Assembly (NCBI GenBank): GCA_030057555.1
Contig: JASGUU010000055.1
Span: forward strand, 1-34,237
DNA from: Bacillota bacterium
GTDB lineage: Bacteria > Bacillota > Clostridia > Saccharofermentanales > Fastidiosipilaceae
Direction of reading: 5' to 3'
Length of the DNA: 34,237 nt
Shown here: in pieces, positions 19,936 to 30,499 of the stretch
Numbering within the stretch: position 1 is the stretch's first letter
How the letters are laid out: every line of letters begins with the position of its first letter
Translations under genes and position numbers: made by a program
The notes under the pieces: model-generated
Database searches by the model: none
What the model saw: the letters and a program-made list of their open reading frames with translations, nothing else
What the model was told of the DNA's origin: nothing

Positions 19936-21036
19936 ATGCTTTATTTTGCTTGGCGGCGCCCCCGGGGCGCCATTGTTCTGCTGCTGATCTTAGTCTCTGC
20001 GGCGCTGCTCGCGGGCTGCGGGGGCAGAGTCGCCGAAACGCCTGCGACCCGCGTTCCGGTGCCGGAGGGGGTGACGGAGCCATATGCCGTGCCTGCTGAA
20101 ACGACCGTCCCTGAGAGCACGCGCAGCGAAAAGCTGAAGATCCTGACCACCATTCGTCCGGCATATGATTTCACTGCCAAGATCGCTGGTGACGATGCTG
20201 AGGTGTCCGTCATCATTCCGGCGGGTGTCGCTGCCCACGGCTGGGAACCCGGTCCGAAGGACATGGTGGCCCTGAGCGGGGCCGATGTTCTGATCTCTAT
20301 CGGCGCAGGCATGGACGCCTGGTCCGAGACACTCGCCGCGACGCGCGGCGAAGATCTGATCCGGCTGGAGCTGGCCCGTCTCGTGACACTGCTGCCGGGA
20401 GATGCTGATCACGGGCACGGCGAAGCTGACGGGCACGGCGAAGCTGACGGGCACGAAGAGCATCATGATGAGCATGATCACGATGCCCACACGGGCCACA
20501 GTCACGGTGCCTACGATCCACATATCTGGCTGGATCCTCAGCGCGGAATCGAAATGGCCCGCGGAATTGCCGACCTGCTGGGTCATGCCGATCCAGTCCG
20601 GCGCGAAGCTTATGAAACCCGTGCTGCCGAGCTCGTCGAACGACTCGAAGAACTGGACAGCACCTGCCGCCGAAAACTGGAGCCCCATGCGGGTCGCGCG
20701 ATCCTGCTCTCTCATGCAGCCTTTGGCTATCTCTGCGATGCCTACGGTCTGCGTCAGATTGCGCTCGAAGGGGTGTTCTCGGAAAGCGAACCCTCGCCGG
20801 CCCGCATGGCGGAGCTCGTCCGGCTGGCTGCCGAGGAGTCAATCCGGGTGGTCTATGTTGAACCGCTGGCATCGCCGCGCACGGCCGAGGCCCTGGCCGC
20901 CGAGATCGGTGGCCGGACTCTGATACTCGATCCCTACGAGGGTGTCACGGTGGAACAGGAGAAGGCCGGTGATGATTACTTCACGGTGATGGAGAGGAAT
21001 CTCGAGGCTCTGCTTGAGGGCTTCGGCGCTGACTGA
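19936..21036 (+). CDS. znuA: Zinc-type ABC transporter substrate-binding lipoprotein (ZnuA/AdcA-like)
   Basis: A 366-residue cluster A-I binding protein. Residues 11-28 form a lipoprotein signal ending in lipobox LLAGC, with C28 as the lipidated cysteine. Likely metal ligands are H101 (AAHGWEPGPKD), H196 (DPHIWLDP), H260 (LLSHAAFGYL) and D332 (ILDPYEG). A His/Asp/Glu-rich loop (158-190) between the first two ligands is the mark of zinc- rather than manganese-specific members. An 18-bp tandem duplication (20413-20448) encodes part of that loop. The start at 19936 follows CGGAGG (19925-19930). A Fur/Zur-like palindrome lies upstream. No permease or ATPase gene is adjacent, so it must work with components encoded elsewhere. 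Confidence 0.88.
   Translation: MLYFAWRRPRGAIVLLLILVSAALLAGCGGRVAETPATRVPVPEGVTEPYAVPAETTVPESTRSEKLKILTTIRPAYDFTAKIAGDDAEVSVIIPAGVAAHGWEPGPKDMVALSGADVLISIGAGMDAWSETLAATRGEDLIRLELARLVTLLPGDADHGHGEADGHGEADGHEEHHDEHDHDAHTGHSHGAYDPHIWLDPQRGIEMARGIADLLGHADPVRREAYETRAAELVERLEELDSTCRRKLEPHAGRAILLSHAAFGYLCDAYGLRQIALEGVFSESEPSPARMAELVRLAAEESIRVVYVEPLASPRTAEALAAEIGGRTLILDPYEGVTVEQEKAGDDYFTVMERNLEALLEGFGAD
20413..20455 (+). repeat. 18-bp tandem repeat in the His-rich loop
   Basis: GGGCACGGCGAAGCTGAC at 20413-20430 is repeated exactly at 20431-20448, with a third partial unit to 20455. It stays in frame (six residues per unit) and adds His/Glu/Asp residues to the metal-binding loop of the lipoprotein. 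Confidence 0.85.
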
Positions 21037-21154: not shown

Positions 21155-21697
21155 GCATAGGGGTACGCGTATATATCGGGACTTGGTAAAATCTTTTTCC
21201 GAGCCTTTCTCAAACTCCGGAAACTCCGACGTTTCAGCGTAGCTTGCATGAGGGCAGATGGAAGAGCTTTCTCCAATTGCCTGCGCAGCGAGAAGCCACA
21301 CACATTGCCGAATGTGAATGACATGCGACAGGATAGCGGGCCGCCAGGCTAACAGGCACGACCATGTGCGTTCAAGGAATTATGAAGGGACAGGTTCCCT
21401 TGCTCTGATGCCGTAAGTTTAAGGCGATCCCGACATTCCCCGGCCCTGTCGTCTCTCTATGGTCAAGATGGGGACTTTTCCAAATCTTTTTTTGGATTAC
21501 TCTTCGTTTTGACCAGAAACGGCCCCTTTGTGGTCAAGATGGGGACTTTTCCAAATCTTTTTTTGGATTACTCTTCGTTTTGACCAGAAACAGCCCCTTT
21601 GTGGTCAAGATGGGGACTTTTCCAAATCTCTTTTTGGATTACTCTTCGTTTTGACCAGAAACGTCCTCCTGTCAGCCGTCCTCCTGACATGCTCAAC
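21155..21697 (+). repeat. Dispersed intergenic element, copy 1
   Basis: This stretch aligns with 28000-28436 almost without gaps. Shared landmarks include GTAAAA at 21186 and 28029, GAATGTGAATG at 21310 and 28155, ACAGGCACG at 21352 and 28197, AAGGCGATCC at 21421 and 28269, a GTCAAG unit at 21460 and 28322, and CAGCCGTCCTC at 21673 and 28402. By eye roughly 70% of positions agree. No intact ORF is shared. One frame keeps codon-like conservation (from 21186: VK, EP, N..N, LA) but has stops in this copy. It differs from copy 2 mainly by two extra 71-bp units. Confidence 0.8.
21460..21672 (+). repeat. 71-bp tandem array, three units
   Basis: Units begin at 21460, 21531 and 21602, an exact 71-base period with only a few substitutions. 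Each unit starts with TGGTCAA and has the inverse TTGACCA about 50 bases on, plus an inner TCCAAA/TTTGGA pair, so each can fold into a nested hairpin. A single diverged unit is found in copy 2 near 28322-28370. There are no unique spacers, so this is not a CRISPR array. Confidence 0.9.
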
Positions 21698-21742
21698 CCG
21701 ATTCACGACATTCCTGACGTGCACCTCAGCCGGCTGAACGGT

Positions 21743-27473: not shown

Positions 27474-27490
27474 GGACTCGGCAGGCAGCG

Positions 27491-27510
27491 CCCGACATCT
27501 GGGTGTCGGG
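27491..27510 (+). terminator. Probable terminator after scpB
   Basis: CCCGACA (27491-27497), loop TCTGGG, TGTCGGG (27504-27510), then GTTTGAG. The stem is perfect but the T tail is short, so termination may be partial. It ends the ileS-scpB run. Confidence 0.55.
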
Positions 27511-27715
27511 GTTTGAGCCTGTGCCTGAAGCAGAGGTATCTGACTGTTTATAGGGCTGACTGCCATTCTTCTTCGGAAAGAGTCATGTCAAGCAGGGTGA
27601 CAACGCTAGAGATGGCAGACATCCTCTGGCTGTAACGTTGAGAAGAGTCCGCGAATCGGCTCACTACTCCTTCTGGCATCCACAAATGGCTCCAGATTAC
27701 GATCGTGTGATCCTG

Positions 27716-27933
27716 AATCGGGGGCACCAGCGTCATTTTTGTCCATCCGTGGCCAAATTTTCCGTTCCTGCCCGCAATCGGGGGCACCAGCGTCATTTTT
27801 GTCCATTCCTGGCCAAATTTTCCGCTCCTGCCCGCAATCGGAGGCACCAGCGTCATTTTTGTCCATCCGTGGCCAAATTTTCCGTTCCTGCCCGCAATCA
27901 GGGGCACCAGCGTCATTTTTGTCCATCCGTGGA
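27716..27933 (+). repeat. 60-bp tandem array, about 3.6 units
   Basis: Units at 27716, 27776, 27836 and 27896 (the last partial) repeat with an exact 60-base period and few substitutions. Each carries GCACCAGCGTCATTTTTGTCCA, whose complement begins TGGACAAAAATGACG, followed after TCCG or a near variant by TGGCCAAATTTTCC in the opposite orientation. So each unit holds a divergent pair of TGGnCAA half-sites. There are no spacers, so not CRISPR. Confidence 0.9.
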
Positions 27934-27999
27934 TCAGCCGTACCGCTTCAACTGTATTGAAGCGGAAATCCCAATTGCCTGGAAGGTTTTCGAGCCAAC

Positions 28000-28436
28000 A
28001 TGGGTGCACGTCATATTTGTCGGGACGAGTAAAACGTTTATGCGAACCATACGCAAACACCTTAAACACCGAAGTTCCAGCGCAGCTTGCAGGCAGGCAT
28101 ATGAAAGATCCCTTCTCCAGTTACCTGCGTAGTGATTAGCCTCACAAACGGCTGGAATGTGAATGGGATGTGCCAGGATGGCGAGCGACGAGGATGACAG
28201 GCACGGCCTCATACTTGCCAGAAGATTGTGAAGCGATCCAGGTTCTGTTGCTCTGAAACCGTATGATAAAGGCGATCCAGACTAACAACGTGCCGCGCAG
28301 CGGCGTACGCGCCCTTCATCATAGTCAAGGCAGCGAGCAATCCAAATCGTTATTTGGGCTTTTGACCACCAGAAATCCGCAAGCTGCTTTTCTCCCTTTT
28401 CCAGCCGTCCTCTTGATATGATAGTCCGCTTCCAGT
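28000..28436 (+). repeat. Dispersed intergenic element, copy 2
   Basis: Collinear with 21155-21697 (landmarks are listed under copy 1). It contains one TGGTCAA-type unit (28322-28370) instead of three, and lies just right of the 60-bp array. In the frame starting at 28029 the translation VKRLCEPYANTLNTEVPAQLA parallels VKSFSEPFSNSGNSDVSA in copy 1, which suggests decayed coding sequence rather than a structured RNA. I recognise no protein family. Confidence 0.8.
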
Positions 28437-28469
28437 CATTTAGACATGCGCCCAGCCAGCATCATGATC

Positions 28470-28498
28470 TTGCGCCTGTATTTGAGCTCCCGTATAAT
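28470..28498 (+). promoter_or_regulatory. Promoter of the transcarboxylase-like operon
   Basis: TTGCGC (28470-28475) and TATAAT (28493-28498) with a 17-base spacer. Transcription would start near 28505, about 60 bases before the first start codon. Confidence 0.65.
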
Positions 28499-28567
28499 TC
28501 TCTGTGATTGTTTTCGCGCGTTGGGAGTTTTCCCTACACATTTCTAGAACTGAGAGGTGCCACGCAC

Positions 28568-30061: not shown

Positions 30062-30499
30062 ATGAAACAGTATCGGATCACGGTTAACGGCCAGACCTAC
30101 AACGTTCAGGTGGAAGCTGCCGACGGCCTCGCAGCCCCGGCTCCCGCGCCCATGGCGGCCGCCCCCGCCCCCGCACCGGCACCCGCCCCGGCTCCCGCGG
30201 CTGCCCCGGCTCCCGCGGCCGCTCCGGCCCCGGCCGCGCCCGTCGCCGACGAAACCCCGGCTCCGGCTCCCGCCGCCCCCGCTTCCGGCGAGCCCGTGAA
30301 AGCGCCGATGCCCGGCACCATTCTCGCCGTCAATGTCAAAGTCGGCGACCGGGTCACACGCGGCCAGGTGCTGTGCATCCTCGAGGCGATGAAGATGGAA
30401 AACGAGATCATGGCCGCCCACGACGCGACGGTGACCCAGATCATCACCTCGGCTGGAACCCCCGTCAACGCCGGCGACAATCTCCTCTTCCTGGCCTGA
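30062..30499 (+). CDS. Biotin carboxyl carrier protein
   Basis: A 145-residue carrier. The C-terminal biotinyl domain (about 77-145) contains the biotinylated lysine K111 in EAMKMENEI. The N-terminal piece (1-20) is short and joined by a long Ala/Pro linker (about 24-75), typical of the gamma/1.3S subunits of decarboxylases and transcarboxylase. It shuttles carboxyl groups between the carboxyltransferase encoded upstream and the 5S/OadA-type subunit downstream. The ribosome binding site is GGGAGG before the ATG at 30062. The linker's GC-rich repeats give long open frames on the other strand, which are artefacts. Confidence 0.94.

Follow-up and report, generated by a model that had tools for sequence, protein, structure and literature searches.

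In dispersed minisatellites of the MIRU/VNTR type, a single repeat unit recurs at numerous intergenic positions, each time as a short tandem array. The BOX elements of Streptococcus pneumoniae are built on the modular plan boxA-(boxB)n-boxC, and are described in PMC3049150 as interspersed elements with terminal inverted repeats and target duplications; their middle module may be absent or present in several copies, lone modules occur elsewhere, long copies hold open frames on both strands, and the elements are nearly confined to close relatives. Satellite-like repeats have also been described on non-autonomous elements in an oyster (PMC7492417), which can serve here as an analogy only. The ends of IS21 elements carry direct repeats, designated L1-L2 and R1-R2, with the layout CS1-AT-CS2 (PMC10122671).

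The stretch of 34,237 nucleotides analysed here (the window) contains a 60-bp tandem array that appears to represent a type of bacterial mobile repeat which is new yet still recognisable, and not an IS21 transposon end. With moderate confidence, we consider it a solo satellite array from a family of genus-specific, dispersed and probably non-coding repeats that are carried by non-autonomous MITEs. The BOX elements are the closest described system in architecture, the likeness being one of architecture alone and not of sequence, and each of the BOX features listed above has a counterpart in the elements described here (PMC3049150). Unlike in BOX, however, the middle module is a 56-bp palindrome with a linker, which occurs in three families that share one dyad frame, and the 60-bp arrays mostly stand alone in the genome of the window. 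Like MITEs, our elements have inverted repeats, lack a transposase gene and show target duplications of about 9 bp. They differ from MITEs in carrying an expandable satellite, in that no parent transposon was found among 19 DDE_Tnp_1 loci, and in that these inverted repeats do not enclose the 60-bp array of the window. What sets the units apart from MIRU/VNTR minisatellites is their palindromic form, with a dyad of constant length (56 bp). We recognised no description of these repeats in the literature outside subscription journals.

Structure of the 60-bp array

The 60-bp tandem array occupies positions 27716-27932 of the window, with no strand assigned, and is documented by TRF, by the sequence itself, by a dyad regular expression (in L016) and by 33 genomic loci. 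TRF reported a period of 60, 3.6 copies, 94% matches and zero indels, which bears out the approximately 3.6 units of period 60 of the original prediction. A partial dyad (27716-27745) is followed by three full 56-bp dyads (27750-27805, 27810-27865 and 27870-27925), and a TGG at 27930-27932, after the last full dyad, closes the array. The neighbouring genes are those for ScpB (PF04079, E 1e-47) and for a carboxyl transferase (PF01039, E 7e-67). Two other tandem repeats of the window lie within genes, one of them (20411-20455, in the ORF 19936-21036) being His-rich and the other (30134-30232, in the ORF 30062-30499) forming an Ala-Pro linker.

Each 60-bp unit contains TGGACAAAAATGACG on the minus strand and TGGCCAAATTTTCC on the plus strand, which diverge and are separated by 4 bp. 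In another frame, the same unit reads as an imperfect palindrome of 56 bp, TGGNCAA...TTGNCCA, followed by a 4-bp linker, and the 71-bp unit of a second array in the window has a 56-bp dyad as in the 60-bp array, but a 15-bp linker. Because the half-sites of the 60-bp array are also convergent across 56 bp, like those of the 71-bp array, whether they point towards or away from each other is a framing choice. The divergent pair that had been predicted is therefore there, while the opposite orientation of the two arrays is not a real contrast, both being convergent across 56 bp. The convergent TGG...CCA frame is favoured because the ends of the 33 arrays cluster at TGG and CCA: ten of these arrays start at phase 1-2 (the outer TGG) and seven end at phase 56 (the outer CCA), the remaining starts and ends being scattered and many arrays truncated. 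The natural unit of the 60-bp array is thus likely the 56-bp imperfect palindrome plus its 4-bp linker.

Since 60 bp correspond to 20 codons and both strands are open, the array could be taken for the gene of a protein with a 20-residue repeat, and ORFs of 164 aa (plus strand, 27638-28132) and 173 aa (minus strand, 27548-28069) do run through it. However, neither ORF matches a Pfam family, the periods of the sister families (70 and 71) break the frame, and large BOX elements also tend to have open frames on both strands, some of them being transcribed (PMC3049150). We give a coding repeat next to no probability.

Three palindrome families with one dyad frame

Repeats of this type were searched in the genome of the window (G000) and in a sister genome (G001), the only other genome of the genus that was searched. 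The geometry of the units proved to be nearly invariant. Where distinct units adjoin each other, 42 of the 43 linkers of the 60-bp family in G000 and 78 of the 79 in the fetched loci of G001 measure 4 bp, and 78 of the 82 linkers of the 71-bp family measure 15 bp. A third family, with a period of 70 (56 + 14), was met in the flanks of the arrays and then searched by its inner palindrome GAGTTKTGTC-N10-GACAMAACTC with up to three mismatches, yielding 28 matches in G000 and 270 in G001 (reversed control, 0); among the matches listed, neighbours are mostly 70 bp apart. The four distinct units of this family that were read are 56 bp long and have TGGTCAA-like ends. The 70-bp family is found in G001 upstream of the carboxyltransferase gene (L180:985-1147) and in G000 at L096, L089 and L077.

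The half-site common to the 60- and 71-bp arrays, as predicted, therefore recurs with a fixed 56-bp geometry, and does so in a third family as well. When arms are compared outside the half-site, in the register that the half-site sets, the 70-bp family is similar both to the 71-bp family (p about 0.007-0.013) and to the 60-bp family (p about 0.002-0.018), while the 60- and 71-bp arms show no direct resemblance to each other (p 0.23 and 0.30); it should be noted that these values come from ten uncorrected comparisons, and that the 70-bp profile derives from four units only. The half-site shared in a fixed geometry, together with the likeness of the 70-bp family to both others, makes common descent or recognition by related proteins plausible. 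To this extent the proposal that one protein recognises both arrays holds, as a shared frame that related proteins might read, but the part of it that named IstA does not (see below).

The dyad is strongly enriched in this genome. The exact pattern TGGNCAA-N42-TTGNCCA occurs 141 times in G000 and never in the reversed control, in agreement with the expectation that the half-site should be enriched in other genomic copies; with up to one mismatch, the counts are 241 and 3. In a sample of 390 other genomes of the class, which did not include G001, each genome has zero to two exact dyads (reversed control, 0-3). The 60-bp array gave 44 BLAST matches in G000, which were merged into 33 loci; for the 71-bp array there were at least 101 matches, merged by eye into at least about 40 loci (40 of 86 candidates scored), and for module A of the MITE-like element described below at least 42 (40 of 56 candidates scored). 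Among 58 genomes examined, the 60-bp array is present in two, G000 and G001, and absent from the other 56 relatives. In public assemblies, the exact half-unit pattern matched only contigs of one assembly, 'Bacillota bacterium isolate MAG87_KBP', in a search that may leave out records very near G000; we infer that this assembly is G001. As the repeat is found in two assemblies, an assembly artefact is unlikely.

The largest 60-bp arrays have 11.5 copies in G001 and 6.8 in G000. The ends of the contigs C44, C51, C53, C65, C87, C89 and C90 have an array or a MITE copy no more than a few hundred bases away, so that the assembly is probably broken there, and the true length and number of the repeats underestimated. 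A phage or plasmid origin was rejected, because no plasmid match was found for 27480-28560 or 21158-21726, no phage match for the 60-bp array, and no exact match in viral contigs for the half-unit and inverted-repeat patterns.

Near-palindromic units may act as hairpins in RNA or single-stranded DNA, as do repeats of the REP/BIME or terminator type. The predicted RNA fold of one 71-bp unit (-26.4 kcal/mol, z -7.4) and that of a 70-bp unit (z -4.1) agree with such a role, a 60-bp unit of the window reaching only z -2.0. On the other hand, in three sets of distinct units from the 60- and 71-bp families (65, 77 and 104 units), the arms pair no better than shuffled arms, the observed value being reached in 500, 458 and 500 out of 500 shuffles; in the 60-bp family, moreover, positions 18-19 are mismatched almost without exception. 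Nothing therefore indicates that a hairpin is maintained in these two families: their arms do not covary, for which reason selection for a hairpin was rejected, and the compensatory pairing of REP/BIME hairpins was not found in them. Rfam gave nothing but one tRNA in the window at gathering level, and no match in 27480-28560 at E up to 5. A functional hairpin thus appears very unlikely, even if single units can fold, as can any near-palindrome.

What is conserved is each arm for itself, the nearly fixed mismatches between arms included, with positions 1-3, 5 and 6 at 81-100%. This fits either copied sequence or a double-stranded protein site. In the latter case, the arrays could be genus-specific satellites with a host role in chromosome organisation or regulation, kept because a dimeric or tetrameric protein binds the dyads. 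The conserved arm positions, the dyad length of 56 bp in all three families, the linkers of 4 versus 14-15 bp, which differ by about one helical turn, and the likeness in register of the 70-bp family to both others are all consistent with this explanation. Yet copied related repeats would yield the same pattern without any host function, the 60-bp arrays were found in one genus only, and no gene orientation is preferred: by a simple ORF rule, the genes around 32 60-bp arrays are tandem in 11 cases, divergent in 10 and convergent in 6 (27 two-sided calls), with 5 arrays at a contig edge. We regard a host role as unlikely.

As for how the arrays form, the identity between units of the 60-bp family in G000 is 0.910 within arrays versus 0.808 between arrays, and local tandem growth is suggested because identity is higher within than between. 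The corresponding values in G001 (0.920 and 0.911) hardly differ, which speaks against local growth.

The MITE-like element and its relation to the arrays

The repeated element of the window, present as copies 1 and 2, is read as a modular, BOX-like MITE with an A-(B)n-C plan, the 71-bp array serving as module B in copy 1. The plan comprises 24-bp terminal inverted repeats, a 300-bp module A, the 71-bp palindromes, a module C and target duplications of about 9 bp. In an alignment of 31 core copies, the left end is sharp at GGGTGCACGTCATATTTGTCGGGA; 71-bp units, seen in most of the 31 copies read, number from about 0.4 to 6 per copy and are followed in most copies by module C and then by an inverted copy of the left end. 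This right inverted repeat has at most 7 mismatches out of 24 in 23 of the 31 copies (shuffled-repeat control, 6/620) and at most 9 in 25. The 24-bp repeat, GGGTGCACGTCA-N4-TGTCGGGA, matched 76 times in G000 and 83 times in G001, with one match in each control. Of 24 distinct flank pairs, 10 show a target duplication of at least 7/9 (control with mismatched flanks, 7/552), some of these being copies of one nested insertion, and the duplication reached 9/9 in L218; the other 14 pairs have no convincing duplication. No stop-to-stop frame within a pair of inverted repeats exceeds 262 codons, a length attained in a copy that carries a 60-bp array. A structured RNA in module A was considered and rejected, the RNAalifold covariation term being 0.02 over 29 copies.

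A shared outer flank, CCATTTTG, brackets 6 of the 31 copies, some of which deviate slightly in the left flank, and is confined to the left side in three others. The copies with the outer repeat on both sides (L023, L031, L034, L036, L042 and L043) have a left sequence like CGTCCGGCACCCTGTAGTTCATTTAAGTTCCATTTTG and a right one like CCATTTTGTCGAAGGAACATGCATCCGCTGGGG. The shared outer repeat is apparently a nested composite that itself multiplied.

Copy 1 (21159..21725, plus strand) has a decayed left inverted repeat, module A, the 71-bp array, a short module C and the right repeat CACGACATTCCTGACGTGCACC; its inverted repeats differ at 6 of 24 positions, and no clear target duplication was seen. 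Its internal 71-bp array (21460..21663, plus strand) has a period of 71, 2.9 copies and 97% matches by TRF, with units of the form TGGTCAA...TTGACCA plus the 15-bp linker. Copy 2 (28002..28453, plus strand) begins with the left inverted repeat GGGTGCACGTCATATTTGTCGGGA and module A, holds a single degenerate unit of the 71 type, and continues through module C to a decayed right end. The degenerate unit (28322..28368, plus strand) is a palindrome shortened to 47 bp, TAGTCAA...TTGACCA, and positions 28324-28357 match 71-bp units of other copies by blastn. Because the right inverted repeat of copy 2, with 10/24 mismatches, is at chance level, its right end was placed by homology of module C and by the flanks, AGCCAACAT and AGCCAGCAT, which agree at 8 of 9 positions.

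The 60-bp array of the window lies 69 bp upstream of the left end of copy 2, and hence outside it, while the 71-bp array is inside copy 1; contrary to what had been proposed, the two arrays do not flank the core in a like manner. Among the 33 60-bp arrays of G000, 31 have no MITE inverted repeat (with up to 4 mismatches) within 1.2 kb or as far as the nearer contig end, the exceptions being the array of the window and L099, where an inverted repeat with 4 mismatches lies 1 kb away. In addition, the flank beyond the array is not conserved for most 60-bp arrays of G000, and the array ends fall at many phases; these observations count against the preferred explanation as regards the spread of the family in G000. 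In G001, two 60-bp arrays lie between MITE inverted repeats, at L250 (1.8 kb) and L251 (848 bp, one end having 6 mismatches), and a 70-bp array does so at L253. These come from 23 mapped loci that were picked partly for inverted-repeat matches near arrays; in ten of the 23 there is a 60-bp array longer than one unit, and two of these ten have it within a pair of inverted repeats.

A further module of 110 bp, with the inverted repeat GCCGCCGCTTT...AAAGCGGCGG, gave 30 matching segments in the loci examined, that at L268 being probably due to chance. It stands directly before the 60-bp array in eight loci of G001 (L183, L187, L189, L193, L219, L250, L251 and L265), before the array also in L082, L090 and L101 of G000, and after it in L103; in L080 the placement is similar by eye. 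The matches to scpB and to the carboxyltransferase gene are on different contigs of G001, with a 70-bp array upstream of the latter gene, so there is no clean empty site in G001 for the array of the window.

Transposases and the origin of the arrays

According to the original prediction, the shared half-site hinted at an IstA-like recogniser. The explanation that follows, namely that IstA binds the units as the multiple-repeat ends of an IS21-type element, of which the arrays would be remnants or targets, can appeal to several facts. The half-site is shared in a fixed geometry, the sites are repeated, as in IS21 termini, and the outermost bases are TG...CA in both; the arms, with a GC-containing start, an AT-rich stretch and a GC-rich block, resemble the CS1-AT-CS2 layout as given in PMC10122671; and an IS3-like gene with an rve match adjoins one 60-bp array. 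However, IstA as recogniser found no support when IS21 elements were surveyed in G000. Seven IstB-family matches were present, one of which spans the profile and has istA beside it; this istA-istB element (C20:166.2-168.7 kb, L108) lies near a contig end, and its ends, judged by eye, carry GAGCCACCTGCTCG-type repeats that are unrelated to the array units, so the search for an intact IS with matching ends turned up a different terminus. TGGNCAA/TTGNCCA occurs three times in this locus, once upstream and twice inside istA. The two or more direct repeats per end of IS21 have no equivalent in the arrays, in which the arms are inverted within each 56-bp unit.

Nor is a transposase gene recurrently associated with the arrays. 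The rve domain (PF00665) was found at two loci only in G000, the istA on C20 and the IS3-like gene. Among 40 fetched loci of G000, 32 of which are 60-bp loci, no istA or istB recurs beside or between arrays, and the 60-bp arrays have no transposase gene as a recurrent neighbour. The only frames recurring in more than three of the 40 loci are array-derived (24 loci) or ABC-ATPase-like (7 loci by eye, from a large family), and an array-linked gene was rejected on this basis. On these grounds, an IS21 origin is highly improbable.

The gene with the rve match belongs to an element of two ORFs that adjoins the 60-bp array at L085 (C87:33-34.7 kb), which we take to be IS3-like. In L088 and L093, too, the end sequence of this element lies at an array or close to one, and a related sequence is present at L097. 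We take the element to have inserted into arrays, which may be its targets, although it may instead have a role in moving them.

A parent of the MITEs themselves was sought among 19 DDE_Tnp_1 loci of G000 and G001, none of which has MITE inverted repeats on both sides. The locus L271 was tried as an autonomous parent because it has a convergent pair with 7 mismatches each; it was rejected, as one of the repeats falls inside the gene.

Returning to the preferred reading, in which the window holds a solo satellite array of a MITE-carried family, the 56-bp palindromes with 4-bp linkers would be boxB-like tandem modules of non-autonomous mobile repeats. Unequal recombination or replication slippage would lengthen or shorten arrays where they stand, while MITEs with GGGTGCACGTCA-N4-TGTCGGGA ends, moved in trans by a transposase, would carry units to new intergenic sites and generate target duplications of about 9 bp. 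The 60-bp array of the window would likewise have been carried by a MITE, its carrier having since been lost. The dyad frame common to the three families suggests a common ancestry of the units, and perhaps a shared DNA-binding protein. A bolder version, which we think distinctly unlikely, is that a dedicated protein or its paralogues recognise the 56-bp dyads in all three satellites, whose linkers differ by one helical turn, and that the resulting genome-wide array of hundreds of bound sites drives trans-mobilisation of the MITEs or organises the chromosome.

The family looks like a bacterial counterpart of the satellites found on non-autonomous transposable elements, with palindromes that expand in place, MITEs that disperse them, and several diverging families that keep one dyad frame. 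If a protein reads the dyad frame, the genus would offer a natural library of hundreds of sites for finding that protein. Otherwise, these repeats would be a lineage-specific family, mainly of use for annotation, since they probably break assemblies and create spurious open reading frames.
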